This document shows positions 4,163 to 31,509 of a stretch of 64,000 nt of DNA, one piece after another. Both the position numbers and the translations under genes were made by a program. The notes beneath the pieces were generated by a model. The model was given only the letters and a program-made list of their open reading frames with translations, was not told where the DNA came from and made no database searches. The number at the start of each line of letters is the position of its first letter. Position 1 is the stretch's first letter. The stretch spans positions 668,381-732,380 of the forward strand of contig FN649740.1 of the NCBI GenBank assembly GCA_000310025.1, read 5' to 3'. Source of the DNA: Ectocarpus siliculosus. Taxonomy: Eukaryota; Sar; Phaeophyceae; Ectocarpales; Ectocarpaceae.

Positions 4163-6457
4163 CAATCTTTAGGAGAATTTTCTATATCGACAGGGATGGG
4201 CACATCTCCTCCCATCACCCCTCAACCTCGGCCTCTACTCTCTCTACCGTCTGTTGGGGTCGCCTGTTCATTGGGTCTGCGACTACACTCACTGCTGTCT
4301 ACCCACTAAATAAATACAAGTAGGAATTTGGTCTTTTCGAATCTAACTTTTATGTTTCTGCTGGTCGTCACCGTAGTAGTTGGTGGGATCCTGAATCTCT
4401 TTATAATTTCTACCGTTTCTTGGACAACAGCGACGGTACCGATTAACGGGTGCGCGCTGTTTAGGATTTGGTCCTTGGGCACTATATTGGAGGAAGGGTT
4501 TGACATGTTTGGACGATTAATGGTTGGGGCCATTGTGCTTTCCGAATTCTCGTTTTGATTGGTCAAGAAGTTGAGTTTTTGTTTTGTTTGAGGATTTGGT
4601 GCGAACTCTTTTGAAGTTGTTTTCTCCAGAAATAAGTGTCCGTTTTTGTTCCGACGCTTTTCTGATGTAGCACAAATAATTGTTGAGTACTTTTCTGAGG
4701 TTAATTCTTTGTGTCAACGGTTTGAGAATATTTCCAGAGACGAACGCGTTGGATTCGTGACTAAACTGATGGAGACGCTTTGTGTTTAATGCGTAGCCAG
4801 TTTTGTTGAATATGTTTTCTCAAGGGGTGTTTTTCTCTGTTGGCTGATCACGCGTGAAGGGTTGCAAGGTCGTACATCGTATCAAGTAGGGGGAGTGTTT
4901 GTGGTACTTGGATATGAGTGAGTCCGATCTGTGCATCCTCTGTGGGGGGTACGCGTATGGGAAGTATGGGTGTGATGGGTATGTATGCGGTTGGGGTCCA
5001 AGTGCGACCCCCCCGAGAGAGCATACGGTGGTGTGCTCCTGGCACTTGCCTGAGGGGCTTACGTGTAGGTGAGCACTCCATGTCGTAGGTAGTGTGAGCA
5101 GCTTGCCTGAGGGGCTTGCGTGTCGGATAAATAATACATGGTCCTTTTCTTCATCTGCTGTTCCTGGGATAACATAGTACCCAGTCTCAACACCACAGAC
5201 CGCTGAGGGCGGTAGTGCCACAAACAATACCTACTGTTGTTGCGGACCCCGAATAGTCACAGCCTGTGTCTTGACCGAACAGTAACATGTTCACACAACT
5301 TTGTTTTACTGCTGCTGGTGCCATTCTACAGCATACAGACTTAAGCCTACGCAAGGTTCCTCGCCGTCCCCGTGCTCCGGATGGTGTTTTTCCCCCAACC
5401 ATATACATATTTTTCTCACAGGTCAAACGGCTAGATAGAAATCCTGAGCGGTGCCCCCGCCGACTGCTGTAACATCTCAATTGTCCCGTCTGGCGGTTAG
5501 CCCTAGGAGACACAAACCTCCACATCTTTTTGGAGAAATCATACCAGCTTGAGCAACCCCGTCGATCAATATGTGCCGCTTTTCAGTTTAGGCCTTGTAG
5601 CGCGAGATAGAGCTCTAGGGATTTGCTATTTTCCTACGCGTAAGAAGCCCAAATACTTTTTTGAGGCTAAGAAAAGGGCCCCCCCCAAAAAAAAATGCCG
5701 ACAAAAAGGTTGCTTAAGACTCGGCCTCATTGTTAGCATGATGTTGAGTGAGAAAAGTTTAAATGATAGGCCTACATCTCTATCTATCCGTGCATGCATG
5801 CTATTTGTGTTTCGCGTGGACTGCCTGGCCTGCACACCATGTTGACCTTTGTCTTGGAATTGCTCAATTTGGGCGGTGGCGCGAAGCGTCGAAAACCTGA
5901 TAGGTTTGTATCGATTGTTGCAATGTTGTGTGGCGCCAGTGATGTTTGTCGTGAATACTTTGTGTGTTTCGTGTTGCTGCAATGGAGACTTCCTCGTTGC
6001 GGTTCAGCAGTAGGAGCGAGTGGCGCAGTGTAGCCGGTGCAGACAACGGAACAACCCGAACAGTCCAGACGATGATGCACTCACCCTTGCCTGCTTACTC
6101 CACCAGGTGCTCGTTTTTTCGATCCTAGACTTGGCCTGTACGTGCCGTGCGCGCACTGCCGTGCCAGGGGCATTCAGTGTGCGTTATTTCGGAACCGTTT
6201 ACTACTGTTTGTGAGTCAATCGAGGGAGCACCGATGGTATCTACACAAGGTCGCTCCGCAGTGTTCCACGTACAATGTCAATGAACCGGCGACTTGAAAC
6301 TAGAATACAGAGGAATTTTGTGTATGGACAGGATATGTATCTAGATCGCCCTTTGGAGAAACGATAGACGGACCCACATGTCGGTCCTATACTGTGGTTC
6401 CTCTTGCAGCATCACATGCGCAACCTTTCCGGATCCGTACGCCTAAGCGTATCACAC

Positions 6458-6511
6458 CATCCTACGGGACACCAGCATCCCACGGGACACCAACATCCCA
6501 CGGGACATCAG
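6458..6511. repeat. 18-bp tandem repeat, three copies
   Basis: Three consecutive units of the form catcc(t/c)acgggacaccag differ at only one or two positions each. The array keeps frame in a short plus frame (a repeated GHQHPT peptide), but nothing else supports coding. Confidence 0.8.
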
Positions 6512-7167
6512 CGAAACTGGTCCTGTCTCGTAGGTTGGTGTGAGCCGATCACGTTATTCAAATTGGCTGCCTTGTTGCCGCGTCGCTGGCTTCCTTCAAG
6601 TACGTAGGAGACTTGGAATTGTTTCTGGGTTTCTGACTTCCCACGGCGACTGTTTGCATACCATAGTCTATAGACGAAGGTGGGCTACTCTCGTGGGCAC
6701 AGGATGTTGGTGAGGAGCTGTGGCGATGCACATCTGAAACGCTCTCTCTCCGGTTCGAGGGTCTTCAAACAGTCGAGCGTCCCTAAAACCGAATTTTGAA
6801 CAGCTCGATCTCTGCGTCGAGCTACAAGATCTCCGTAGATGCGGGGAAACAGCCCACAGAGAATATCAAGCTGCCGCAAACCAAGCAGAACACGCACTTT
6901 ACACACAGAGCCTACGCTTTCGCCCTCTCCCGGGGTAGGAACGGGCAAGGTTCGGCAACAGAGGGGTGTACACCTCGAATTTTTTACGTTGCAGACTTTT
7001 TAGGGGTCAGAAACGGCTTGAGCGTTTGTGGCGGCCACAGTACCGCCAGGGAAACCCGGAGGATGAACGGGAATGATCCAACTTCAGGGTAACATTGAAC
7101 CCCGTTTGTTGTACCGGGTCCATCCCCTCCCCTGGTAAGAACCCCCCCTCCCCACGAAAGCACTACA

Positions 7168-7780
7168 GTAGGTGGGCCCGATTAGCGGCAACCTGAACAA
7201 CGGAATTGCCGATTCAGCGGCATCAAAATACCAAAATATCTCGTCACAATTTCGACTCGATATAGCGGCAATGTGCCACTATAGCGGACGAAGCCCGATG
7301 TAGCGGCACTTTAGGGTGTCGCATACCCCAATAGCGGCAATTCCAAGAGTGGGAGCCCCCATGTGTTTCACCCGCGCGCACCCAAACACACACCCAGTGG
7401 GCGTCACACGTATCACGCTAGCATGTGCGGATCTAGAACTTTGTAAACTCCCAAACCTACCACTGGGAGAGAAGGACGGTGGGCACCAATGTCGCTAAAC
7501 CGACACGCACGGCTGTTGGACTTCAGAGCGTTTACCCAGTCATAGTGGAAATAGTCGGTAGACGCCCACGGCTGCAAAAGCATTGTGACGGTTGGGATCC
7601 TACTCCTTTCCCGTCATGTAGTGTGCGCATTAAAACGTTTTCTCCGCTTTAGCGGCAATGTGGCTGGTATTGGGGGGGTCAATAGCGGAAACATTTCCGC
7701 TACAGCGGAATAGCGGCACTGCCCTTTCTAGCGGCATGTTTTTGGCTTGCCCCTACATGCCGCTATATCGGGCCACGTAC
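7168..7780. mobile_element. Inverted-repeat element A (613 bp, MITE-like)
   Basis: The ends form an imperfect inverted repeat of about 23 bp: GTAGGTGGGCCCGATTAGCG on the left, and the reverse complement of the right end reads GTACGTGGCCCGATATAGCG. Inside, the octamer TAGCGGCA or its complement occurs about eight times exactly, plus several near copies, mostly within 200 bp of either end. It encodes nothing recognisable. Terminal inverted repeats with subterminal motif arrays are typical of non-autonomous DNA transposons. The superfamily and target-site duplication could not be settled by eye. Confidence 0.65.
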
Positions 7781-9103
7781 AAATCGTGCGGGCCTATAAG
7801 TGAGAAGTGAAGGATGGTACACAGGCACTCCATGAGACTCGGTATTAACGAGGTTCGAACAATCAACAGCAATTAACAATCAAAATTGAGCTCTGATAGA
7901 TCGACGACCAAAACTAAAGCCTTGTCTAAGTTCCCACAAGAGCTCAATTTAATTTATTGACTTGGAACACAACAGGTTAAACGTCCTCGGAGAACTTTTA
8001 GCTTCAAACTAAGTCAGCAAAAGCAGAAAATAAATAAAATGGATATGTTTTTCTTGGCCAACAGATCCCGTATTCGTTGGTTTTGATTTCTTACACGGCC
8101 TGATGCGCGAAGAACAGCGGAGGCCTCGATAAGCATGGCACTCTTGACACAAATTTGATGGACCCACTCGAAAGGATAACACATCACAAAAGCGAAGCAC
8201 CCACTGTATTTCACCCGAAAGACCGCAAACGCCCAGGCGCTACACCGCCGCACTTACCGACTTATATTCAAAATATGTCGTGCGACACCCTCTACACTGA
8301 CGATGAGGGTGCCAGAAGCACGGTGGCAATACAGCATGCAATGAAAAGCACTGTTGCAAAGAACAGGGTGTACGCCCCAACGGCGACACGAATTGCGTGT
8401 GTGCGCGGGGAACGAGAGATGGAGAGCAACAGCTGCCGCAAGCGAGAGGTCCGAAACTCGCCAAACTGCACGAAGAAATAATCGGAATGCGCAGAGGATC
8501 TTATGCGTTCTAAATCCAAGCGAAATGAAAATGGTGGCCTCTGGGCTCGAACACAAGCAATGGTCGCCAATGATTATCCCTCACGGAAATGAAAACCTGG
8601 TGCTTTGAACAGAGCAAAACGACAAAATATACATCTGTTGTTGGCGTACCTGACGGACCGGGAAACCTGAACACAAACGCTATGAGGTCCGAGCGTCCAT
8701 GAATGAAGGTTCACCGTACAGCCGTGGCTCCGATATAAGCGGGTGGCGGTGTGACAAAGGCCGTTGACCCTCTTATATGAGAGCCCCCGCTTAAAACCAG
8801 GATAGGAAGTTACCCAACTATACTATAGCGGGTCGAGTCCGTGGAAACCGATGTCGACCCTCTTCGTCGACCACGACTGTATAGACCAGGAGTGGGTGTC
8901 CAAATGTGCACGTGAACGTGACGAGCAAACGACACACCACGCTTTTGTGGAACGCAGCTATTTGCGCACGTAAACAAAAATCGTGAACTGTCGTCTTGCT
9001 ACTTGGAGAGATAAAAAGATGGGAGCCATGCACGATGCTGCGATGACAACATTTGTCTTGTTCTTCCTTTTTGGCTGGCATCCCATGATGACATCGCAGG
9101 GGC
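7781..9103. other. No gene seen
   Basis: Several short, mutually overlapping frames lie on both strands at 8000-8600. None has a recognisable domain or splice structure. Near 8725-8830 there are short ataagcgggt / atagcgggtc motifs faintly like those of element A. Confidence 0.4.
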
Positions 9104-9154
9104 TTGTCGGTTGAGCCAATAGATACCGCGCGTCGAGATGACGCCGACGCCAGC

Positions 9155-9746
9155 ATGGACGACTCTGAAGTAGCCTACATCGCCAGGTCGAAGCGGGATG
9201 TCGCTGAGCACTTCGGAGTAGCGTGGTCCACCATGCAGCCGCGGCTCGTGGGGAAAGTAGGAGGGAAGGTGAGCAATAACCCTATCCCGGACTCTATACG
9301 TGCTTCCCGCGGCAACGACGTCTGAAAAATATCGACCTGTAGATTTTACCTATATGAAAAGATGAGTCCGCCGACAACGGTGCGATGTAATCGGCATGTG
9401 GAGACACACACCGGCGGCACCGCACAGCCAAGTGTATGGCGAGTTTGTTTGTGGCTGCTCTTGTAGGTGTAGCTTGGAAAATCACGCGCAAGTGGTGCTC
9501 GACCGGTGAAGAAGCACCCGCTGTCACTGGCTCATGGTCGTTCGTGTCGATGACAATACTGTACTCCTACGCGTGGAAACTACAACAAGCAGCCGGCGTC
9601 GTCAGCGCGCGCCACAAACCTACCAGACGAAGTGGAGACCGAGCTGTTTCAGCATGTGTTGTGGCTGTGCGAGAACGGCCACTCGACGAACTGGGACAAC
9701 ATCAAAGCAATTGCTTGGAAGCTGGGGAAGATGGCTGGGATAGAGG
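9155..9746 (+). pseudogene. CENP-B/Tc5-type transposase N-terminus, two exons, probably a remnant
   Basis: Exon 1 (about 9104-9268, ATG at 9155) encodes a helix-turn-helix-like stretch, RDVAEHFGVAWSTMQPRL, followed by a G/K linker and a gtgagc donor. Exon 2 (9593-9746) opens after a cag acceptor and encodes LPDEVETELFQHVLWLCENG followed by WDNIKAIAWKLGKMAGIE, ending at gtgagt. The exon 1 end and exon 2 start are both phase 0. The order, a psq-like helix-turn-helix followed by a leu/pro-glu-rich second helical domain, is that of pogo/Tigger and other CENP-B-like transposases (family knowledge). I found no DDE catalytic exon downstream, so it is either a decayed copy or a domesticated DNA-binding fragment. 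Family assignment is by pattern only. Confidence 0.4.
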
Positions 9747-10717
9747 GTGAGTTTGTATGTTTTTCTGCACCGCGGCAGTGTGGGAACGGAGCAGGAGTGT
9801 CGCGCAGGGGGGGGTAACGGCAAGGATCGCTCGCTACATCACCGCTGGCGCAAAGGGGATGGGAGGGGTTGGGGTTAGATCAGTGATAAGGTGCGGTTTC
9901 GTCAATCGTATGCATAAGTTGAATAGTGCCAGTACGGTGCAGTGCCGGTGACGTAACTCTGGCGGGCACACATCGGCACTACTGAGGGACCCCTGCTGTA
10001 TCCTGCCCGGTAGTCGTGATGGTAGGGTCTGATCTGGCATTGTAGTGTAGTACAGCAGTGCAATGCGGTATACGTGCATCAGTGTCTGTTTGTGGCAGTC
10101 GAACCCGGTTAGGGAATCAGAGGACGAACGAAGAAATCAATTGTGAAGTAGACGCGGAACAAGCAATCCGCCTTGCATACTTCGTTGTTAATGGCTTGGT
10201 CGCTTTGCCTGCGCGTGGCTGTGAGCCGCATCAAACCCCGCGTGCGGTTGATCCAGCGCTCGATGCTGAGCAAACTTCGCCCCCCCCGGATATGGCGCAG
10301 ACTTTGCGGCGTCAAATCATTGGCTGAAGAGGTTCAAGGTTCGCTTCCCTGCCCTCGAAGCTCGCTACAGCCATCACCTACGTACAACCCAGCTCAGCAA
10401 GGTTGGTTTCATTGCCTAGGTTTTCTGACGGAACGCAGCAGCGGAGGGGATAAAATTTGTCTGTACGACCTGGTTTTGGGAACGGGGGTACACGAAGGGG
10501 CCAAAAGGCAGTTTGAAAGATGATTGTTCGCTTTTCAATGTTGAACGAGCACTCTTATTTTCGTGTGGTATGCACGTCTCTTAGCGTCACACCCCCTCCC
10601 CGTTCGTTCGTCGATAAATAGTAATACTGTAGGTCATGCTGCCCGAATTCATTCAACCTTCACGCACGACGTCTTGCTCCGTGTGGCCTCGTCGTTCGGT
10701 GACACCGCCAGGCGGAT

Positions 10718-12522: not shown

Positions 12523-12868
12523 GGGGGGGGGGGGGTGTACTCATAGTCGTGCATGCCGTAGTCGTTTGACCATTGACCTCGCATCCCTACAAAGCCGGGA
12601 CGGAGCACGCCGGGTTCTCACCGGACCAGGCTCTCACATCACCAAGCGTGAAGCGCCGTGAGGTATTTGGCGAGTCGCATGAAGGGTGAGCTGCATCCTG
12701 CTAAGGGTGTTCGGCATCTTGTGCTTACTTCCTTGCGTACGGATGACAGCTACGTATGACTTAATTTATTTTCTGGTGCTTTCACTTCCAGAGACAGTTG
12801 TAAGCACTGTGTAACTGCCTCGAGGAAGCTTGACCATTTTAACACAACGTGGTGCGATCATCCCCCGT
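12523..12868. repeat. Dispersed repeat, left copy (346 bp)
   Basis: It begins at a G-run followed by tgtactcatagtc and ends at gatcatccccc. An almost identical copy in the same orientation lies at 26735-27080. The differences are scattered, for example around 12640-12660. It has no coding capacity. It could be a solo LTR, a TRIM or another short element. The G-run start and C-run end are shared by both copies. Confidence 0.75.
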
Positions 12869-12997
12869 TGCGCGGAGTGAGGGTTCTCGACCCCGCACAA
12901 CATGATCTACTCGACCACCATTATGGTTACCGCCAAAAAAAAAAACCGAGGTAAAAAAAAAAACGGTAACCTGGTTGTCGAGTTCACGAAGTGAATT

Positions 12998-13197
12998 GGC
13001 TTGTTTTACAACGTCGTTGCCAAGCGACGAAAACCCAATCCCGATGGCAAACACCGAGTGGGGGGCTTGTTTTACAACGTCGTTGCCAAGCGACGAAAAC
13101 CCAAACCCCGATGGCAAACACCGGGGGGGGCGGCTTGTTTTACAACGTCGTTGCCAAGCGACGAAAACCCAACCCCCGATGGCAAACACCGAGGGGG
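12998..13197. repeat. Minisatellite, about 67 bp, three copies
   Basis: Units start near 12998, 13066 and 13132 with ggcttgttttacaacgtcgt. Each contains gccaagcgacgaaaaccc and gatggcaaacaccg, then a G-run that lengthens toward the gap. The array may be longer inside the gap. Confidence 0.85.
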
Positions 13198-13218
13198 GGG
13201 TGGAGGGGGGGGGGGGGG

Positions 13219-13318
13219 NNNNNNNNNNNNNNNNNNNNNNNNNNNNNNNNNNNNNNNNNNNNNNNNNNNNNNNNNNNNNNNNNNNNNNNNNNNNNNNNNN
13301 NNNNNNNNNNNNNNNNNN
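13219..13318. other. Assembly gap (100 N)
   Basis: Exactly 100 N. It follows a G-run at the end of the minisatellite, so the gap is probably a failure to read through the repeat, and its true length is unknown. Confidence 0.95.
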
Positions 13319-13386
13319 GGTTTTCCAGGGGGGAGAGTTTTTAAGATGAAAAAGAAACAGAAAGGGGGGTTGACCCAGGTCCCGGG

Positions 13387-13450
13387 GGGGGGGGGGCGTA
13401 CTCATTTGTTGCTTGCCGTAGTCATTTGACCATTGACCACGCGTCCCTTT
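13387..13450. repeat. Partial third copy of the dispersed repeat start
   Basis: A G-run followed by cgtactcat and then gccgtagtcatttgaccatt resembles the first about 60 bp of the 346-bp repeat at 12523, in the same orientation, at lower identity. Similarity stops after about 13450. Confidence 0.5.
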
Positions 13451-14383
13451 CGAGACGGAGGGGAGGGGATTTACGCAAGGGGAGTGGCGGCGCTCTTGGC
13501 ATTTCGAAAATAAGCCCCGCCGGCCGCTGCTGATGCCACGGCGAGAACAAGGCTGAAGGAGAAGGCGAAAGTGGCCGACCGAAGCCAAGAACAAGGGGGT
13601 TTCGGCGAGAGCATTGAGGTTGGGGAGGGGGGGCGGGACAGGACCAAAGCGGCGGGTGTTCACGTTTTTGTTTGTAGGCGGGGGGAAGTAGCCGAAGAAA
13701 AGAGGAGACGGTTGACGAGCTGCTGGTGTTCTTCCGCTATTCCACGCACATGGGTTTCAGCCGTCGCGTCGGAAACCACGCACTGCTGTGGCTGTGTCTT
13801 TGTCTTTGTCTTTTATTTTCTGCCTTTGTTTTTCGCGTTGGGAGTGGTGGGGTGGTGGAGATGAAATGAGAAGAAGAAACATGAGCTAAGGGTTACGCAA
13901 GCAAGGTGCAGGGATGGAAGCCTGGATGCCGAGTTCTTTGTTGTGTGGTAAAAAGGACGGCCGGTCCGGCGTGTTTTTGACTTGGTGCGGAGGGCGGTTG
14001 GTGGCGTCTGGAATTCGTCACCACATGAAATCGAAGTACGAAGGTTTCCGGAGACGGAAATAGTTTCGAGTCTAGTCTAGACGAAGGCAGCGCGTGTGCA
14101 TCGCCAGCGATATTTATTCACGTTGAGTTTGATTTTTTCCCGTTTTTTCCTGTTCGGTGGGAGAGGAAGGATCTTCCACGCTACTTGCTTCTCTGTTCAC
14201 CAGCTTCCGTGTTTCCCTCTCTGCACACAACTAGAACAATTTTTGTTGCTTCTTGCCTTCTAAGAGGGCACCACCGCGTATTGTGCGGTATAATATGCAT
14301 ATCATACGCTTTGAATGTTATTTGTGTACAAAAGGTCCGAAGTGGGGGTCGGAGTGTTGGTCGCGGCTGCTGTTGGCCATATG

Positions 14384-18321: not shown

Positions 18322-21300
18322 TTACCCGCCACCCTTGGCCCAACGGGTGAGACCCACCGCACCCACAACCGCCACAACACTACAGGCGACCCCAACCCCG
18401 ACAGCCTCGCCGGTGCTAAGGCCGCCCTTGCTGCTAGAGGACGGAGCGTCGTCCTCCGTGTTGGCCGCGTCGCCCGGGTCAACGCTCCTGTCTTGAGCGC
18501 CGCCGGTCGAGTCGTCAGCAGGAGCCGGGGTGGGGGAGCCGTCCCCTCCGTCGCCATTGCCACCTCCCTCCTCTCCGTCGCCATCTGTGACTCCGACACC
18601 GTCTCCTTCTTCTCCGTCCGGTAGAGAACCCCCCGAACCACCAGTGCTTGCGGGGGAAGGCGTGGAAGGCGTGGAAGGCATATCCACGCATTCCACCATG
18701 ACCTTTTGGGAGGGGACGGACATAGAGAGAGGGGCGGGCTCTGAGAATGGATAATGAAAGGTTTGAGACGTGCAACTTTTGCACTTTTTTTGCGACTACT
18801 ATGGAAGAGATTAGATCACAGCATCTGGAAAAGTGACGATGTTAGTGAAGAAATGAGAACTACTTCGTATTGTTGTTGTTGTTGTGGTGGTGGTGGTGAT
18901 GATGGTGATGGTGGTGGTGGTGGCGGTATCTTGGCATATTGTCCGAACGACAATTAATAGCACACCTCTTGGTTTCACACTAAACTACCCAAGCGCGGCA
19001 GCAACAGCAAGGTGAACGACGACCATGACGACATCTTATCGTCGACTATGTACATCACGATCACCATCATTCATCATCATCATCAACAACAACAACAACA
19101 ACAACAACAACGATAACCACAACAGTGTCCTTCCCACCTCCACGGCGTGTTCGGGTGTAGCCTCGGTGGTGCCTTCCACCATCCACCACATGGCCGTGTC
19201 AATGTCGTCCGGGTTGGTGGCGCAGTCTTGCACAGTCAATGAAGAGTTGCCCGTTGCTTCTGCCAATATCCAGTAACCGCCTTGGTTTTTGATAGGCATT
19301 GGCGGAGTGAGGGGGCGGTAGTGAGGGGTTAGGAGCCCTTGAAGGACTGATTCCCTACATCATTATTTGATTAACACATGAAAAAGCAACTATCTATGTA
19401 GAAAAAGAATGGCACACCGTAGTACTACCATGCACCGTCAGAGTTCCAACTTTTACCAGTCAATCAAGTGTGGTAATAGCTCATCACGCCAAAACTCACA
19501 TTCAGAGGTGGCATTCAGGGCGGTCGTGGTCGTCGACGTCGTGTTTGTCGCCGCTCCTTCGTAGGGCACGTGGCTCATGATAGCGCTGCTGTCGTTCTTG
19601 AGGAAGAGCGTCTCGTTCATACCGGCCTGAAACAACAGAAAAGAAGGGTATGCGTCTTCATTTTTGAAACGAAGGGATGTTGAAGAAGTTCTTCGTCGCA
19701 TTGCCATGGTCTTGGGAAAACGTGTGGTGGACAACTAGGAGAAGCGCCATAAACATGTACCACATACACACGGATTATGTTTCGACGAGGGACGACCTTT
19801 TCTCCCAAGAGTGCGTCAGTGTAAGCGTTGCTTTTTCTTGGTGTAAACTTGTCTTGCAGCACAGATTTGGGGTATCACTGCAACCGAAACGTCTGTAATT
19901 AACTCCCATGAGGCCATCTTAGGTTTCGTTTTTTCCGGACTGGAATATTTACTTCTTCGCCTTGGTGATGAGTTTGTTGCATGCTTCATTTTTACCTGTC
20001 AATAAATAAATGTCTTATGCAACTACGCACCATCATGTGGTAGATGCCGTCGAACTGCTGCAGTTCGTCGACAATAACAGAGATGGTCTTGCAGTCCATC
20101 GTTTCCATGGCGGAGGGGGAGGGAGTAGACCCGCCGCCAACAACACGATCGGGGCCATCGGTGATGCCAGTGTCATTGCCACCGCCGCTTCCGCTTCCGC
20201 TCCCATCACCAGTATCCACAGGGGCAGCGACAGGTGGGCGCGACGTTCCTACTCTCGTTCACCGTCCGTCGGATACCATCGATAGGTAGGAAGGGTAAAA
20301 ACGGTGGGAACAAAATGAAGAGTCATGGAGCTGCTGGAAAATTACCGCTTCCGAGTTGTGGGGCCCAAAAAGGTTCTCAATTGAACTTGCTTTTGTTTCG
20401 TTGTTGGCGCAGATTCGCAATCTTCTGACTATTGGGCGTCAGACCTTCTCGCGATAAAAATCAAGACAAGCACCACAGAACGAAGGGGGAGAATCAAATC
20501 CTGCGTGGCGATCCTCCTGTGACCCCGGCTGGTGCGTCCAGAATACTACCGAAAAGGCGCAAGGACCGACGTCCGGAAAATGTTGGAAGAACAAAATTAT
20601 TTGTAAAAATGACAACAGACCCTCTTCAAGAATGAGGAATCGAATCAGATATGTTCGGCAAGTGGTCCGTGAGACGTTGTGCTTTGCTGGGACACAACAA
20701 AGCACAGGAATGTATCGCAAAGAGGTATGGTGAGAGTAGGTCAACGGATCGTCAATTCGAAAGAGGGACTAGATACCATGTGCGTTGGTGGATCTACCCG
20801 AAGTATGCTGAACCATGCAAGTCAGAGAGCGCATGCATGAAAATATCGTAAGGTTTACTCAAAGGAATGAACACAACGCAAACTCGCGACAACGACCGTC
20901 ATACAGGAGTAAATCGTGCATCGTCTTGGAATACCGGCGGGATCTTCACGAAGAAAGGAAATCGAGCCACGTGTGACCCGCTGTGAATAGGTGTCTTCAA
21001 ACCGCCAATTTTTTCCAGTCTTATTTGGATAAATTCAGCTACAGCTAGATTGCTAAACAACCCACCTTCAGGGATCATGCACGGAGGCTCGACCCCCGGA
21101 TCGCCACACACCACTTCAATATCCACGAAGGCTTTTAGGCAGCAGTACGACGAAGCGGTGGCGTCTTCCGGCAGCTCCCTTCCATCGGGGAAGATATTGA
21201 CCACTGGAATTGCACCGCATCCTTCCCCTCCGCACTGGCCACATCCCAGGGGACAGCAATACACACCATCGTCGGACACCCCTTCTACGCCTTCCACGTA

Positions 21301-24300
21301 GCAGGTGTCTTCAGCGAAATCTGCATGGTACGGTGGGAGGAAGGCGGGTGGTTCTCGGTATATCTGAACAGGAGACAAAACGCGCCAAAGCGGAAAGCAT
21401 GCCTTCTACAACAACAACAGTATTCCCATCCCGTCGACGGATTAATTAATGTCCACACAACGAAGCGCCCCTTCCCGGGTCCAACCAACACCGACAACAA
21501 AGATACGAAAATGCAGCACTGTAGAAACAGCAGAAACAGCAACAGAGAGGCCTAACGCTCTTTCCTTTTCCAACAGCAACCAAACACGCCAACGAAAAAA
21601 CAGCCGACGACCACAAGAACTGTAAGGACATATTAGCATTTTCTGCATTAAAACAGAACACTCACCAGCCGGAATGAGGCAAGGAGGGTAGCCCTCGTCA
21701 TCACCCGTTCCAGTCCCACACGTGACGTCTCTTGTGTCCACCCCAGACGTGCAGCAGTAATCACCCGATTTGGCGTCGATGGGGACATCACCTTCCACAG
21801 TAGGAGCCACTAGGTTCATGTCGATTAACCCGCACCCACCACCACCGCACATTCCGCACCCCTAGCAACCGTATATAGCGAGAACACGGGGCTTAGCTCG
21901 GGTTTGGTTCATGCAATTCTCTTTTGTGGCGGCGTGTAGGTGGATGGGGTGGGGTATATGCGAGCTGGAGGCAGTGTACTGCAAGCAGAGATTTCTTTCT
22001 AAGCAGCGACAGGAATGTTTGGGAACGTGTCATGATTAGTAAGTCGTCGGGAGATGTTTTCTTCGTGGGCAAGGTTGATTGTTTCATTTTTGGCACACAC
22101 ATACACCGTGGTTGTGTCGGGGGTCGCAACGAATTAGGCTTTTCTACGTCGAGGCTCGGCCCACCGAACAACGTATCCCAGCCACACCCACAGACCCACC
22201 TGTGGGCAACAACGGGTTCCGGTGGCGTCCATGATGCCAGGAATGCCTGGAAGGCCGCAGTTGTCAATCAAGTTCGAGGAAACTTCGGGGGCAAGGGTGG
22301 CGGTGACTGTCCCTGTGCCTGTGGAGGTGGGGGGTGATTAGCATGTTCAACGACGGGTGGGTGGGGGGCGGGTGTGGACAAACGGCACCGGGAAGGCACT
22401 GGTAGGGAGTCAAGAGAAAGAGCAGATCAGGAGGGTAATGGTGGAGCCAAGAACACAAACACAGCTTCAGTGAGCGAGGGGGGGGGGTGGTCCACAAGGC
22501 AGGGTGCGAGGGGGAAAAACGAAAGAAAGGGGGACGGATGAAGATGGCCGGCGGTGGATAATAAGACACGCAAAGAGTAAGAAGGTGGGAAGAACGATAC
22601 AGGATACGACCAGCATAGCATTATCATCCCGTTGACGGATTAGTTCGCGGCCGCACAACATGCAAGAGCCCCCGGTCCCATCAACACCGATAACTACGTC
22701 AAAAGCAACAACACCAACAGCAAAACCACGAAAAACAGCGATAGCAGCAGCAATGCCAACACCCCCCTGCTCTTCCGACAGCAGGCCGAAACACGCCAAC
22801 GAAAACACCGACGACGACGACGACGACAAGAAATAACGACACATGCACACCAGCATATTCTGCATTAAAACAGAACACTCACCAGCCGGAATGAAGCAAG
22901 GAGGGTAGCCCTCATCATCACCCGTCCCAGTCCCACACGTGACGTCTCTTGTGTCCACCCCAGACGTGCAGCAGTAATCACCCGATTTGGCGTCGATGGG
23001 GACATCACCTTCCACAGTAGGAGCCACTAGGTTCATGTCGACTAACCCGCACCCCACACCACCGCACATTCCGCACCCCTAGCAACCGTATATAGCGAGA
23101 ACACGGGGCTTAGCTCGGGTTTGGTTCATGCAATTCTCTTTTGTGGCGGCGTGTAGGTGGATGGGGTGGGGCATATGCGAGCTGGAGGCAGTGTACTGCA
23201 AGCAGAGATTTCTTTCTAAGCAGCGACAGGAATGTTTGGGAACAACGTGTCATGATTAGTAAGTCGTCGGGAGATGTTTTCTTCGTGGGCAAGGTTGATT
23301 GTTTCATTTTTGGCACACACATACACGTCGGGGGTCGCAACGAATTGGGCTTTGCTACGTCGAGGCTCGGCCCTCCAAACAACGTATCCCAGACACACAC
23401 ACAAAACGAACTCGAGTGCAAGGTAACAGCCTTGGTAGACGCGTGCAGTTTTCTTCTGTTGCTACCGTTTCTGTGTTTGATCTGGAGGATAGTTTAGCCT
23501 CCCCCATGCTGACCCCTCACGGGGTCCCAGTTCATGGCAGACATAAGTGTTTTGTGTTTTCAACCGCACTAAGGCTGACGTATTTTCATTGGTCAGCCAG
23601 TTAGCGCGGTTGATGCTAATAATAAAAACACACACGAGAAGACGATGAAAACAATGCGAAACGCACGCACATCCAACGGAGTAGCAGCCATGGCAAACAC
23701 GTAAAATGTTCTTCTGTTGCTACGGTATCTATCTGTTTTTAATCCGGAGAGTAGCGTGGACTGCCTCATGACGCTCGGTCACAGGGTCCCAGATCGTGGC
23801 CTGTAGAAGCGTTTTATGTTTTCCACCGTCGTACTGAGACTGGCGTTTTTTCATTGGTCAGCCGGTTAGCGCGGTCGATGCTACAGTAATAAAGAAGACA
23901 CGCACACCCACCTGTGGGCAACAACGGGTTCCGGAGGTATCCATGATGCCAGGGATGTCTGGAAGGCCGCAGTTGTCAATCAAGCTGGAGGCGACTTCGG
24001 GGGCAAGGGTGGCGGTGACTGTCTCTGTGACTGTGGGGGTGGGGGGTGATCAGCATGTTCAACGACGGGTGGGTGGGGGGCGGGTGTGGACAAACGGCAC
24101 CGGGAGGGCATAAGTCGAGAGAAAGAGGAGATCGGGAGAGTTGAGGGTGGGGCCAAGAGCACCAACAGGGATTAGGTGAGCGAGGGGGGGGGGGGGAATC
24201 CACAAGGCAGGGCGCGAGGGGGCAAAACTAAAGAAAGGGGATGGATGAGGATCACGGGCGGCGGAGTACACGACACACAAGTAGGACAGAGGGGAGAGAC

Positions 24301-27300
24301 CAAGAGAAGACCCGGTCGTCATCAAAAAAGAAAAGAGTAACTAACATTGTTGTAAAATTCGGAAGTCATTCCATTGAAAGCGTACTTACTATAGATTGTG
24401 AACACCATGTCTCACTACTTACTGCATGGCTAACAGCAGCAGCAGCAACAGCAGCAGCAGCAACAACTGCAGCAGCAAACGTGTCATCGTCTTGCTTCTC
24501 TCCCTCACCTTGATCCTCAGCAGCAATTAGGCACGGGGGAGATACTCCGTCTCCGCAGGTAGGAGAGTTGACGGTGAACGAGCTCGTGCAGCAGTAGGAC
24601 CTGCAGCGCGGTGACAGCAGTAGATTCGTTCCAGTCTTGAGGCATCACATCATCATCCAGTTCTTGCCGTCACAAACTAACGTATGAATACCTTCCTCCA
24701 AAAACATATATATTTAAACTCTCATGCAACCCCATCGTGGATCTCATAGAACGGAAAGAAAGCACCATTTCTTGAACGCGTTTACAAGATCATCTCATAA
24801 TCTGATTTCACCATTTTCAGCGATACCGTCCAAGAGGGAAGGCAGACCACACAAATATACGGGACCATGCAGCACATGCACCGAGAAAAAACTCTCCGAC
24901 GTGCGGCAACCATTAGACTAGACTTAGCTCTTTATGGAACAACTGGGGGCACGCTCGAGGACGACTTGCGGCTGACGGACGGTGACAGGAACAATGACAG
25001 CAGCCATGGATCGTAGTGACGACAAGGCCACACGATTACAAGTACAGTAGAACAGTACCGACAGAGGAAATACATTAATTAAGTTGAATCATGATATTCT
25101 ACCAGAACTAATAGCAGTAACTAGATTAAGTGCGATTTAGTACTTGGGGCGAACTTACGTGGACGTAGCGTTGGAGGCAGGTTCGTGGTCGAGGTACGGG
25201 GTGATGTAGCCCATGTCGATCGAGCCACATCTTCAGCGACACGGCGTGGGCAGGTGGGGAGGTCGATTTAATCTCTGGTGTAATGGTCATACCCTCCCGC
25301 CGTGATTGGGGCGAAGCGGACCTACCTCCGTTTATCTGACCGTACACCACCAACCCCCTCAAAATGCCGCCGAAGGAATGGCGGCATTGGTATGGTTGTT
25401 GTTGTCACCACCGCATTCACGTTGAGAAACTTTCCGATCTTTGCTCCGTTTCATGCCAACTCCTTGAATTGCCTTATTTATGCACACGCACTCCAACTGT
25501 TCTGGAGAGAGGCGCAGCGTTCTCTCCGACAGGTTCCTGCATCAATTCAAGCCATTTCCTACAGGTCGCGCAACAAGACCTATGTCCTGCAGAATGCTGC
25601 CTTCTGAGGTACTGTAGCTCAAGAACCTCCCCGTGTGTGTGTCGTAGTCCATCGGAATCTATAAATGATGCGCAAACGCTGGCTCGCAAACGAGGCACCC
25701 CCCTGCGTCTTCCTACAATCTGACAACTCATGAATCACAGGCTAGACCGCCACAAAAAAACAAGACAACGAGAACAAAAAACAAACCTCGTGTACCCTTC
25801 TCTTACCCGGTATCTCCGCATTGCCCACAGCCCTGCGAATAAACGGAAAGAGTCGGGCAGCGAATGGAAGAAGGAAGAAGGACTTTGGCGTGACACAGAA
25901 ATACAGGCAGGCAGACGGGTCACACAATCAATCTCACAATTTGCTCGTTCTCGATAAATTTTAGTCACTTTCAGGTGTATGTATGCATACGAACCCGGAA
26001 TAGTTTACCACCAATTAAAAGTGGCGCGCACGAGTCACGCGAGATGCGACGTTCAAAGCACATAGGCACACATGCCTTGAGAATTTTCAAGCAGAGCGTA
26101 ATTGCTAGCTGCTTGTACCACAAGGAAAAAAATGGAAACTGTTAAAAAGTTAAACACTAGCTCACCAGCATGGCCACCAGCTAAACTACAACAAAAGAAA
26201 GGTACGCATGACGTTTTCGTCGAAACCTGCCACCACGATGCCATTTTCGTACAGCAAATGAAAGCGATAAAACCCATTGCAACGCTGTGTCAAGTAAATT
26301 TGGTATTCTCAAGGTTAAATGAGGCAATAATACAATATTCCGGCGGCTTCGATGGATTCTGAGGCACATCTTCAGCGAAGAGTCAGACGTCTTCGATGAA
26401 GAACGAAGAAACCCCAATGGATATCAAAGCAGGCAGACAGATATGGCATGCACTTGCCAAGGGGCAGCATTTGTCGCCGGTACGAACGCCTTGGATGCCA
26501 ACAACGCCGCAGGTGTCGTCGGGAAGGTCCCGTGGGGGCAGGGTTTCCACCACTGTCGCAGGAGGGCGGGCGGGGGTGGCGGCGAAGAACATGCACAACG
26601 ATCCGCANNNNNNNNNNNNNNNNNNNNNNNNNNNNNNNNNNNNNNNNNNNNNNNNNNNNNNNNNNNNNNNNNNNNNNNNNNNNNNNNNNNNNNNNNNNNN
26701 NNNNNNNCATGACCTGAGCGCTTTTTCCTGGATAGGGGGGGGGGGGGTGTACTCATAGTCCTGCATGCCGTAGTCGTTTGACCATTGACCTCGCATCCCT
26801 ACAAAGCCGGGACGGAGCACGCCGGGTTCTCACCGGACCAGGCTCTCACATCACCAAACGCGAAACCCCCTGAGGTATTTGGCGAGTCGCATGAAGGGTG
26901 AGCTGCATCCTGCTAAGGGTGTTCGGCATCTTGTGCTTACTTCCTTGCGTACGGATGACAGCTACGTATGACTTAATTTATTTTCTGGTGCTTTCACTTC
27001 CAGAGACAGTTGTAAGCACTGTGTAACTGCCTCGAGGAAGCTTGACCATGTTAACACAACGTGGTGCGATCATCCCCCGTAGGGGGGGGGGGGCACCTCA
27101 AGCATAGTTTCAGACTATTTTGTACCAGCAATATTCTCCATGGTGTGTGCCCAGATCTTCCCGCGGGAGATTGGCGGCGTTTGATAGATGACCGTACGTG
27201 CAGTCAGAGAGGTGCCCTGTGCCACTGTAAAGAACTACGGCCCGGATTAGCTCGACAGAGTGCCACAATCGATGGAGCAAGTAGTACCAAACAGCTGTTT

Positions 27301-30300
27301 GCCCTGCTAAATATTCAACAGGCCTGTCTCTGGTCGCATCCAAAGTGAGTGTGGTGTTTCGGTTTGCTGCTTTTTCAACAATCGACGTACGAAGCACCAC
27401 GATGTCCTTTGTCACAACCGTAAACGGCATAAGGTTGCGGCGTAGGTCTCACAACTTACTTTGCCAGATCAGGGATATCCAGCAAGCGCAACAGGAGGCT
27501 ACGCTTTTGTGGGCGTTAAAGATGAAGGAAAGGAAGACAACAGAGCAAATATACTACAAAAGAAAAACTACGACAGCAACCAGAAAGACAAGGGTGGGAA
27601 CACTAAAGAGGAAACGTACCCTCAGGAATCATGCACGGAGGCTCGGCACCATCCACGCCGCATTCCCCAACGTCTCTGAAGGCAGATTGGCAGCAGAAAT
27701 CCTTGCCATTGCGAGCAGCAGCAAAAAAAAAAACAAGTAGAATGAAACGAAGAACTGGATTACGTTGTTGTAGGCCGGGCAGAGAGATGTTGAAACATCT
27801 TATGTTCCACATCGGAATACGTAGGAACGTACAAAAAAATGTACCATAGGTAGTAGTAAAAAAAAAACAGAGGCCCAGTCGAGAATGGTAGAATCCAACT
27901 ACCTCATGGCGCGATCTCGACGATATCGGTGAGAATAGCAAGACATAATAACACACAGCAGCTCAAACTACTGTGAGGATGTTCGACACGCACATGAAAG
28001 TAACCATATGATGTGAAACGTCCAATTTGGTGTTGGGACGTTCCAATGGCTGACGACAGTCAAATGATCTAACGATCGCCCGATGAAAGGAAGGCTCCAA
28101 CCGTTGAACGTTCGGAGAGATATGCATACGAGAATTTAAGGACATGGTACTGCTGCACGAGACCTTCTTGGTTGGGCTTTTACGCACAGATAGGGCTACA
28201 AGAAAATACACTACAGTTAAATCACGGGAGCAAAACCTGGGTTGCCGAACCCTCCGGTGCGGTAGTACTCCACGGAAGTTCGCCAGGGAACACGTATGAG
28301 ATGTGCTGATCGCCGCACCCTATCCCTACGCAATCTGTTTTTGTGTTTTTGGAACAAAGCGGAAGGAAACGGAAGGAAACGAGACAATAACAAGGGAAAA
28401 TACAGGGAAAACGACGGAACAAAAATAGGACAGAACGTCGGAGAAGTTGATGGGGGGAATAAACTCCTAAGTGAACAGCACACCGCACATCGCCCTGCCG
28501 TCTCTGAGGATGTGTGTTCATGTTGCTAGTCTTGGCTACAACCAACACACTCCACTGCTGTTATTACTTCCACGACTTGAGCCATCATTGTATAATGAAC
28601 GACACACATTGTCTTTGCGGCGTTCTCCAGGCGCGGGGAAACACAGCGCGATACGATGTAACTCACTTGCGCAGCCAAGGGGGCAGCACGTGTTCGCGGG
28701 TCCAGCAAGGCCCTCGATGCCGTCCACACCGCAAGTGTCCACTTTTGTCTCGAACTCTGGAAGTGATTGCAGGGGGAGAAACAGGCAGTGTCGCGGGAGG
28801 GGTTGCAGGAGGTAGTCTTAGCTGGGGCAACCATAGAGAGAGCGCATTCTTATTCGTAACCCTAGGGGTGTCGTCCGAAACCACGAAATAGCACGTTTGT
28901 CCTGTCTCTTTGTTGGCTACGCGTACCTTCTGTGATGGCACCAGTAAAGTACGGTTTGTGTTTACGGAACCGATGGTGCCATAATGATTTAGTTACAAGC
29001 CTCTTCTACCACCACTGTTCGACAACAGCATCTATCTAAACATAGCTGTGGCAGAGTGGGAAGTTGGAAGCAGTGGCTGGATCGTTGGAACGTAAGGAGA
29101 GGAGAGTTATCTCTGGTGCGACATGCTGCCTCGTCCGTCTAACGACAGAAACGGAAAAATAAGCAATCCTCATCCCATCCATGCCACCATACCGCGAGCG
29201 ATCATCTATTCGTTCTTGCTGTAGGGAAGGCAAAGCGAGACAGAACTGACAATAAGAAGGTCAACGTTGCTGTTGTCGCTTACCCTGGGGCATGCGGCAC
29301 GGAGCTTCGACCCCAGCCCCGCATACTGTTTCCGTGGTCTCGAAGATGTCGTAGCAGCAGTAATCTGGTTTCGACGGTATTATCGGTCGATGTGTAGTAA
29401 GTTCGATGTTGGACATGACATGGCTCGACAGTAAGTTCGATGTTGGACATGACATGGCACGACAGTATTTCGCGATTTAGGTGATAGAAGCTTCAAGTGG
29501 GGAATGAGACGAAACGCCCGCGACGGGGAATAGAAAATAAAGGACTGTCAGACTTGTAGATAGGTATGCAGTGAGTATGAACACTAAGAGGGTGAGCGCG
29601 CCTACGGAGTACAGAAGCCACAAGCTTCTTTCAAGAGGCTCGACATTCGGACCTGACTTTTTGAGTACTCACCAGCAGACGTAGCCCCATCCGGAACGCT
29701 GGGATCCACAGACAGCGGGTTGTCACCCGGCATGACCCAGGACATAGGTACTGAACTGCACGTGAGGCCGCCGCATGTACCGCAGCCGGCGGGACAGCAC
29801 AAGAAGCCATCGTCGCTGAGAACACCATCGGTCACTCCACAGGGTGTGGCGTCGACAGGGTCTGCGAGATGTTCAAAATTGTTTTCGGGGGAGGGGGTCG
29901 CGTGTGAGCGACTGTTCCAATTGTCATGCTGTAGTCCATGGCGCAAAACATCACCTTGGTATCACTGTCGCTGGCTTCATACCGTTTCGACCACTGCTCA
30001 AGGTTACCGATGCGCGCAGAGTAATAAAAACTCGGAACTTGGGTTCCACGTGTGTACCAAGATTTGGTTGGGGTGGATGTGGCGTTGGTAATACCGCCAA
30101 CAACGAGTTGCTCCGGTCGGCTTTCTATCTCTATCGGGCGTGGTACACACGACAGTAGGATGTTAGGTGCGCGTGAAAGCCCATGTATCATGACGGTGTT
30201 TCATTCATAGGATGTCTGTTGCCGTGGTGCTTATGGCAGACGGGAGGAGGGGGAACGTCTGCGTTGTAGGCATTTTGCGGCAGTTATTGTGGCGTGGTTC

Positions 30301-31509
30301 CATCTGTTTGTTCCCTGTGGCGGCGTACAGGTATCCGGCCTTAGACCGCATACTTCCGATCATCATCACCATGGGAGTCGTTGCTGAAAATTTGCAGCGA
30401 ACAGTCCAACGATCAATAATCCTGCGGAACTCTCGCTGCAACCAACGCTTGTAAACCAACAAACGAGCGGTTCATCACTACCCCCGGTGCTTTGAAGCTG
30501 ATTGCCCCAAAGCTGAGCTCGTACCCAACTCTTTGTGCTCTGTACCTCGCAGCCTTCCCGCCTTGTAGTCCTAGCCAACCTAGAACTCTCTTGAAAATCG
30601 ATTTAGTGCCAGTGGACGATTCGTGGAAATAGCGTGTGTGATCGTTTTGATACCTGTAGGCGGGAGGGCGCACGCTTCGCTCGATTCCTCTCCCCCGGTG
30701 CACCAGTCGAGAGGAGTTGCCCTGATCTCAGTCAAGAAGCACTCCTTGCCGGTGTTCTCTGCAGACGTACCGCCACACGTGCACACGCATTCACTCGCGC
30801 AGCAGATGTCGGCATTCTTGCCTGTGCCTTGGATACCGTTGCACGTCGCAACCTGGGACGGTTCTGGTATTTTTGAACGAAGAATCAGAGGTTGCGTGAA
30901 TTGGGGAAGAGGGCAGAGTCAGGGCGGGTTGTGGGTGGTGGCGTGGTAGTGGGCCGTCGTGGTGATGTGAAACTATTGATGCACTTGGCAGACTGCTGCT
31001 CTTTCATAAGTTGGCGCGGTGATACGAATGCCCGTCATGCTCGGTTCTCCACTCGGGCAAACTACTCGCCTTGATTTTTCAATTTGTCTCCAGGTACATA
31101 CGCCCGTTCGCACCATTTTGTAAAAGTGGCGCCAAGAAAAGAACCCCAACGCTGGAAAGTTCCTCACCGAGCCACGCAATTCCTCTCGCTTCTACAGTTC
31201 CAAATGCACCCACGCACCCTTCGCAGCAACGAAGTAAGTGATGAACAGTATACTGACCTTGGCCAGCACATGAAATGCGAATTGGTGTCCTACGTAGAGA
31301 CAAAACAAGGAGAAATTTCTCCTATCTTGCAGCAGTGCTTGAATGCTTGAAGAGGAGGGTTAATCCGACCCTCAACACAACTCGGCGTGGTGCACCTCAG
31401 ACCTACCCTCGCACGCAGTCGTCGTCGTCGTCGTCGCGTCAGTCGCTTGTGAGTTTACCCTGCTCGGAGGGGTCCAGAGCAGGAGCAGGAGTATGGCGGA
31501 CGATCTCAT
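18322..31509 (-). CDS. Secreted, membrane-anchored protein with seven Cys-rich CC-CGG repeat units
   Basis: Exons in transcript order: 31509-31407 (signal peptide, MRSSAILLLLLW start), [missing link], about 31069-30985, 30852-30654, 29861-29673, 29364-29284, 28756-28667, 28334-28237, 27701-27620, 26552-26454, 25230-25159, 24600-24509, 24030-23912, 23078-22883, 22318-22200, 21861-21666, 21320-21066, 20248-20031, 19626-19500, 19280-19138, 18702-18322. Splice phases agree at every junction except signal exon to 31069 and 26454 to 25230. About 950-1000 aa. The repeat unit is C-G-V-x-G-I-x-G, then CCPxxCGxCGGxGC, then a P/D-rich linker, YCC, CG and PPCxIP. After unit 7 come N-glycosylation sequons, a long Ser/Pro/Gly/Asp stalk (residues roughly 850-940), one membrane helix (GVGVACSVVAVVGAVGL) and a tail of about nine residues. 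This predicts a type I surface protein. Partner and function are unknown to me. Confidence 0.75.
19084..19111. repeat. (CAA)n microsatellite in an intron
   Basis: An uninterrupted CAA run in the last intron of the Cys-rich gene, close to the donor at 19137. Confidence 0.9.
21666..22318 (-). repeat. Cys-rich unit 6: younger or older twin of unit 5
   Basis: Exons 22318-22200 and 21861-21666 encode a complete unit, with CGLPGIPGIM then RCCPQ, then GCGMCGGGGCGLIDMNLV and YPPCLIPA. The exon lengths (119 and 196 bp) are identical to those of unit 5. The intron between them is also conserved (compare about 21862-22200 with 23079-23400). Confidence 0.85.
22883..24030 (-). repeat. Cys-rich unit 5: tandem duplicate of unit 6, intron expanded
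   Basis: Exons 24030-23912 and 23078-22883 differ from their unit 6 counterparts by a few substitutions only. The protein reads GCGMCGGVGCGLVDMNLV and YPPCFIPA. The intron matches the unit 6 intron up to about 23400 and then carries about 500 extra bases. Confidence 0.85.
23428..23908. mobile_element. Two direct copies of an about 215-bp SINE-like sequence
   Basis: Copies at about 23428-23640 and 23685-23908 share tcttctgttgctac, cagggtcccag/ggggtcccag, ttttcattggtcagcc and gttagcgcgg(t)tgatgct. Each ends in an A-rich stretch (aataataaaaa and taataaagaaga). They are diverged, about three-quarters alike by eye. They account for the extra length of the unit 5 intron relative to unit 6. I did not find clear Pol III boxes, so SINE-like is a guess. 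Confidence 0.5.
24436..24478. repeat. CAG/CAA simple repeat in an intron
   Basis: cagcag and caacag units in the intron downstream of the exon 24600-24509 of the Cys-rich gene. Confidence 0.8.
26608..26707. other. Assembly gap (100 N)
   Basis: It lies in the intron between exons 27701-27620 and 26552-26454 of the Cys-rich gene, next to the right copy of the dispersed repeat. The neighbouring exons are intact and in phase, so the gap probably hides only intron or repeat sequence. Confidence 0.95.
26735..27080. repeat. Dispersed repeat, right copy (346 bp)
   Basis: It is near-identical to 12523-12868 and in the same orientation, beginning at a G-run and ending at gatcatccccc followed by another G-run. 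It is inserted in an intron of the Cys-rich gene, opposite in sense to the gene's transcription. Confidence 0.75.
29397..29464. repeat. 34-bp tandem repeat, two copies
   Basis: gtaagttcgatgttggacat followed by gacatggc(t/a)cgaca is repeated back to back with one mismatch. It is in the intron upstream of the exon 29364-29284 of the Cys-rich gene. Confidence 0.85.

Follow-up and report, generated by a model that had tools for sequence, protein, structure and literature searches.

In a 64,000-nucleotide stretch of the genome of the brown alga Ectocarpus siliculosus (contig FN649740.1, positions 668,381 to 732,380 of the forward strand; hereafter the window, whose own numbering is used below), we characterized a minus-strand gene (31509..18322) whose predicted product combines seven tandem cysteine-rich units with a C-terminal hydrophobic helix. 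Our results favour, with a probability of roughly 0.55, a brown-algal membrane-anchored extracellular protein of the cell wall, acting as a membrane-to-wall tether that binds a wall component; we infer its secretion, topology, disulphides, wall location, ligand and tethering from the features described here.

The predicted protein is arranged as a signal peptide, units 1 to 7 (U1-U7), a Gly/Ser linker, a juxtamembrane domain, a stalk, a hydrophobic helix and a tail. The units span amino acids (aa) ~39-685 and contain 69 cysteines, and six of the seven N-glycosylation sequons of the protein lie within aa 686-857. In the stalk (aa 858-940), Ser, Thr, Pro and Gly account for 49 of 83 residues, with 18 acidic and 2 basic residues, and the hydrophobic stretch peaks at aa 948-966 by hydropathy, with about 8 residues (TRWAKGGG) remaining after it and no room for a cytoplasmic signalling tail. 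These features agree with an initial annotation of the stretch, which had described a signal peptide (found in exon 1 by hydropathy and reading), a glycosylated juxtamembrane part (sequon-rich, as predicted sites), an acidic Ser/Pro/Gly stalk and one membrane helix; its nine-residue tail is corrected to about eight. Judged by hydropathy and reading, the combination of signal peptide, stalk and single hydrophobic helix is that of a single-pass Wsc-like wall sensor. The juxtamembrane domain had nothing convincing in Pfam, PDB or NCBIfam (best PDB E 0.22), and a search of the genome returned only its own locus and one place at E 0.30; it may resemble a domain known from other proteins by its NG..VY and W.IG strings, a likeness that these three databases did not confirm.

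Ten cysteines are present in six of the seven window units, and the exact string CCPxxCGxCGGxGC in three (U5, U6 and U7). The spacing CC-x3-C-x2-C-x4-C ... CC-x10-C is kept in five of the seven, U3 being one residue off (CC-x9-C in place of CC-x10-C) and U1 failing as a degenerate unit with nine cysteines, differing spacing and no second CC; the seven units originally described are retained, while their supposedly fixed spacing is not, with the exact string confined to U5-U7 and deviations in U1 and U3. The full ten-cysteine pattern occurs within a single exon in U7 only, and did not occur in 200 Markov shuffles. A hold-out profile, derived from 40 units at other places of the genome and containing neither window sequence nor the related copy on contig C10, matched all seven window units in nine stretches with a summed score of 86.0 bits, compared with at most -31.6 in 200 shuffles. 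So far as this profile similarity goes, all seven window units are shown to belong to a ten-cysteine module family of the genome. A shorter core pattern was dropped as evidence, because five of its seven window matches were poly-cysteine frames of simple repeats, the other two being units. The window units carry a net charge of -4 to -11. The loop from cysteine 6 to cysteine 7 is 24-30 residues long in the C10 copy and in each of the six window units with ten cysteines, compared with 9-13 in other units.

The source genome (189 Mb, 492 contigs) was searched for further members. A U7-like query gave 12 matches, four of them inside the window; a shorter relative gave at least 150 matches at E<=1 (the best 150 of 188 candidates), and a second query, whose last 28 residues are not sequence-derived, also gave at least 150 (the best 150 of 193 candidates). 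Once pooled, at least 172 exon matches formed 67 same-strand clusters at 10 kb, a family count that is a lower bound because the scored candidates were the best 150 of each set; the largest cluster comprises 27 listed places across 37 kb of contig C4. The 172 places include weak matches, such as C14:2575955 (best E 0.0019), and exclude C99:89210 (E 0.105), C25:739243 (E 0.45), shifted repeats of listed places, and C15:690580 and C15:692292, two half-unit exons that also belong to the window gene. Near-identical units on C47 and C358, and on C21 and C443, may represent duplicate assembly. The spacing CC-x3-C-x2-C-x4-C with CC-x10-C is kept in 44 of 47 genome units, two displaying x3 for x2 and one x9, in a set whose search pattern had CC-x3-C fixed from the start. 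Across the 42 units of the loci, the mean numbers of acidic, basic and aromatic residues are 7.9, 1.3 and 1.5.

All eight whole-unit borders in the window model (the starts of exons 2, 3, 5, 8, 12, 14, 16 and 17) are in phase 1. With splice sites picked by simple rules, 25 of the 42 units of the loci are phase 1-1, ten have a phase 1 acceptor with no donor found, five combine phase 1 at one end with phase 0 at the other, one has a phase 0 acceptor with no donor found, and for one neither site was found. Exon phase and a minimum copy number are thereby shown, and the unit is best read as an exon cassette in phase 1-1 that has multiplied in the source genome. Within the window, U5 and U6 display 16 differences in 312 coding bases, and one part of their introns is 94% alike over 334 columns; to judge from this similarity, they are a recent duplication that included the adjoining intron. 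Furthermore, a partial paralog on C10 contains a signal-peptide exon, a U5/U6-like unit, a U7-like unit, a linker and a stalk, in the same order and on the same strand; it may be decayed, because the genome search found no juxtamembrane match there and no helix was seen.

Pairwise comparisons revealed constraint, with averages that may mask single sites under diversifying selection: among 17 units of the 27 places in the C4 array, median nonsynonymous (dN) and synonymous (dS) divergences were 0.144 and 0.508, the median dN/dS was 0.215, and none of the 135 usable pairs (of 136) exceeded 1. Values for U7 and C10 were dN 0.227 and dS 0.745, for exons 13 and 15 and C10 dN ~0.2 and dS ~0.47, and for U5 and U6 dN 0.039 and dS 0.096. 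The unit sequence is constrained coding sequence under purifying selection, which speaks against a diversifying, immune-type repertoire in the C4 array.

The gene model itself was obtained by reconstructing the minus strand, where 20 exons (2925 bases) joined in compatible phases into a single frame of 974 aa plus a stop, with 18 GT-AG introns and one GC-AG intron (intron 8, after exon 8), in line with the single spliced minus-strand protein first proposed (Table 1). The acceptor used for exon 16 is ...ATACCGAG; a stronger CAG 10 bases upstream, picked by a simple rule, gives phase 0. At the sequence level, the 20-exon model holds.

Table 1. Exons of the window gene and the assembly gap within it, in order of transcription.
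Feature	Position	Strand	Content
Exon 1	31407..31509	-	Signal peptide MRSSAILLLLLWTPPSRVNS..; similar C10 paralog start MRSSIMLLLLLWTPLS
Exon 2	30654..30863	-	Unit 1, degenerate, nine cysteines; hold-out profile match
Exon 3	29673..29861	-	Unit 2, first part; hold-out profile match
Exon 4	29284..29364	-	Unit 2, last part; hold-out profile match
Exon 5	28667..28756	-	Unit 3, first part; hold-out profile match
Exon 6	28237..28334	-	Unit 3, middle; weak donor GTTTTG
Exon 7	27620..27701	-	Unit 3, last part; hold-out profile match
Assembly gap	26608..26707	.	100 N, within intron 7
Exon 8	26458..26552	-	Unit 4, first part; GC donor
Exon 9	25807..25832	-	Unit 4, CG.CG part
Exon 10	25159..25230	-	Unit 4, loop
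Exon 11	24509..24600	-	Unit 4, last part; hold-out profile match
Exon 12	23912..24030	-	Unit 5, first part; hold-out profile match
Exon 13	22883..23078	-	Unit 5, last part; hold-out profile match
Exon 14	22200..22318	-	Unit 6, first part; hold-out profile match
Exon 15	21666..21861	-	Unit 6, last part; hold-out profile match
Exon 16	21066..21353	-	Whole unit 7 in a single exon; hold-out profile match
Exon 17	20031..20248	-	Gly/Ser linker and start of juxtamembrane domain
Exon 18	19500..19626	-	Juxtamembrane domain, many N-glycosylation sequons
Exon 19	19138..19280	-	Juxtamembrane domain, end
Exon 20	18322..18702	-	Acidic Ser/Pro/Gly stalk, hydrophobic helix (aa 948-966), short tail, stop

Around this gap (26500-27100) and at 12839-13756, both on the minus strand, the window contains 100-N gaps (26608-26707 and 13219-13318) accompanied by similar readings, GQWSNDYG..PPPP and GDDRTTLC; a single element, repeated at assembly gaps, probably accounts for both stretches. 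Two further observations concern unit-like sequence: window positions 61776-62036 (minus strand) read as a half-unit (NDTCCTSAIQETG) at chance level (profile E 0.73), and on C368 (1501-2076, minus strand, of the extracted locus) a long SADE repeat continues in frame directly into a unit.

At other loci, units were found beside partner domains. On C5 and C21, units are followed downstream by WSC matches that exceed the Pfam cut-off. At C26:6811k, a single open frame links the end of a WSC match, by way of a Pro/Ser linker, to an apparent unit start, whose first loop has 8 residues compared with 12-16, the rest of a unit being further on; this is suggestive of a WSC domain and a unit on one polypeptide. 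Expansin-like exons follow a unit at C26:6825k and, when joined by hand, match the solved expansin chains 9ms5 (E 2.4e-9) and 7wvr (2.7e-9), as well as 2bh0 (0.037); on C11, a CBM1 exon (E 3.1e-7) is located 3' of a unit exon; and at C10:1567500-1577400 (positions 5515-9857) long TPAP-type Pro/Thr-rich repeats and several GDTNGDG exons, dockerin-like or EF-hand-like (Dockerin_1 E 0.001 at C10:1572k, below the Pfam cut-off), come after a unit. Where the exons are separate, we infer that unit and partner would lie on the same transcript.

The genome contains at least 102 WSC matches (150 of 244 candidates scored), and for eight of the 67 unit clusters one of these is found on the same strand at a distance of no more than 10 kb. 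Random placement, repeated 2000 times, gave a mean of 0.28 and a maximum of 3; gene density does not enter this null model. This disregard of gene density weighs against assigning the window gene to the wall, and so do several other results. The other 59 clusters have no WSC match from that same list within 10 kb on the same strand, the window cluster is outside the eight, and the window gene itself has no WSC, CBM1 or expansin part according to Pfam. Furthermore, the expansin-like part at C26:6825k reached only E 0.18 with Pfam DPBB_1, just one of the 23 genome matches to CBM1 (PF00734), that on C11, has a unit cluster no more than 10 kb away, and CAP/PR-1 was rejected as a partner with none of six CAP matches within this distance. 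Fold prediction of a unit, which the initial annotation had suggested, was run with AlphaFold2 on U7 with eight window fragments and gave an unusable, low-confidence fold (mean predicted local distance difference test score, pLDDT, 41.2; predicted template modelling score, pTM, 0.25). As for CBM1, which is best known from fungi and oomycetes, its genome matches are found on C3, C11, C25, C226 and other contigs, several as close pairs.

Database searches named no relative of the unit. In Pfam at E<=10, there was no match for the whole protein, U7, five other units or 23 aligned units; NCBIfam and PHROGs (both E<=1), two single-query viral scans and a plasmid search yielded no unit relative, and the best hits among PDB sequences (E 0.11 with a single unit, 3.1 with the profile) were judged chance. 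The earlier statement that no named domain was known for this pattern is thus borne out by Pfam, NCBIfam, PHROGs and PDB sequences. Several candidates were rejected: a degenerate pattern matched 29 viral contigs, none with an acceptable unit reading by eye; the sole match in a genome-contig collection (16 residues) fell in CxxCxGxG-type repeats of a large bacterial protein and was not accepted as a prokaryotic relative; and the WAP four-disulphide core, whose CC..CG..C string had made it a candidate, had no Pfam match at that threshold among the 23 units. No description of the unit was recognised in the portions of open-licence literature covered, which does not prove that the unit is undescribed.

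Some known systems share traits with the window protein or its units. Yeast Wsc-type sensors (WSC proteins, PF01822) are likewise built from a signal peptide, a Cys-rich ectodomain, a Ser/Pro-rich stalk and a single membrane helix, and their signalling tail is much longer than the tail found here. The unit differs from WSC in lacking a Pfam match to PF01822 and in having ten cysteines, compared with up to eight in the WSC domain as given in an excerpt of PMC12879055; the same excerpt reports brown-algal PR-1 proteins carrying WSC and the carbohydrate-binding module (CBM) domain PS51164. Excerpts of PMC4712521 and PMC4557024 describe the acidic Cys-rich (ACR) domains of diatom frustulins, algal wall proteins with repeats of ~50 residues and Gly- or Pro-rich linkers, to which the units are similar as acidic Cys-rich repeats; however, the ACR hexapeptides C.GDCD and VPGCSG occur in none of 47 units, in a comparison by hexapeptides. 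CBM1 is also a small Cys-rich module with a QCGG string, but none of its genome matches is a unit and the units lack a Pfam match. Similarly, EsV-1-7 (PF19114) constitutes a large Cys-rich family in the source genome, with at least 150 matches (150 of 880 candidates); 14 control genomes, bacterial where named, gave no match. Along with the genome size and a G+C near 0.5, this family is in keeping with a brown-algal source, perhaps close to Ectocarpus. It differs from the unit in its 35-position model, the units again having no Pfam match. Finally, brown-algal ROCO and NB-ARC-TPR genes display shuffled exons with one repeat per exon in tandem arrays (PMC11378527, in part), an arrangement shared by the unit; their repeats are leucine-rich (LRR) or tetratricopeptide (TPR), with phase 2 in ROCO, whereas the unit is Cys-rich, in phase 1-1 and under purifying selection in the C4 array.

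In the mechanism that we propose, the seven tandem Cys-rich modules, carried on the glycosylated juxtamembrane domain and the acidic stalk, would extend from the plasma membrane into the wall, where they would bind a wall component and in this way tether the membrane to it. Candidate contacts are calcium-bridged alginate or sulphated fucans, or protein-protein packing; because the units are acidic and aromatic-poor, a calcium-bridged or protein-protein contact fits better than an aromatic cellulose platform. By analogy with the frustulin ACR domains (PMC4557024, in part), the acidic charge may serve calcium-bridged binding of a polyanion. The phase 1-1 cassette would have been amplified and, at certain other loci, brought together with WSC, expansin-like, CBM1 and Pro/Thr-rich parts. 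An adhesion, cell-wall or receptor role had been guessed initially; its cell-wall part is indirectly favoured by the domains beside related units elsewhere, and the shortness of the tail makes a signalling receptor less likely.

A recognition or adhesion receptor, for self/non-self, gametes or pathogens, in which modular exons supply binding diversity, would be consistent with units that are exon modules, mostly phase 1-1, and form arrays reaching 27 listed places, with the recent duplication of U5 and U6, and with the precedent of shuffled LRR exons in brown-algal ROCO genes (PMC11378527, in part). Nevertheless, we consider it unlikely, given the low dN/dS of the C4 array, the values below 1 in the other comparisons, and a tail of about 8 residues that cannot hold a signalling domain. 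The C-terminus could also be read as a glycosylphosphatidylinositol (GPI) signal following SSSSKGG, making the product a secreted, GPI-anchored or shed wall protein, as the position of the hydrophobic stretch near the C-terminus and the small residues before it would allow; the hydrophilic TRWAKGGG that follows, with two basic residues, is not expected of a typical GPI signal, and this alternative appears quite unlikely.

Very unlikely, in our assessment, is that the model fuses two genes, with the gap in intron 7 hiding the boundary, or that the locus is a partly decayed or unexpressed gene. The 100-N gap, the degenerate U1, the poor exon 6 donor, the second-best exon 16 acceptor, and a C10 relative with no detected helix or juxtamembrane domain point in that direction; against it, phases agree across all exons, on C10 the signal-peptide exon, the units, the linker and the stalk have stayed in order, and dN/dS is below 1 for U5 and U6 as well as for U7 and exons 13 and 15 compared with C10.

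As a neighbouring observation, an open frame at window positions 54203-54769 (minus strand) contains a reading that resembles an N-terminal acetyltransferase, perhaps of the NAA30 kind.

Brown algae evolved complex multicellularity apart from animals and plants, and few of their wall-organising proteins are known. We tentatively suggest that the unit could be an undescribed extracellular domain family, a brown-algal invention or amplification used as a phase 1-1 exon-shuffling currency, in a role comparable to that of EGF and sushi modules in animals, with the window gene as a seven-module tether. The module, with its at least 172 matches in 67 clusters, would point to a set of candidates for wall and adhesion proteins, and would offer a test case for the independent exon shuffling of extracellular modules.

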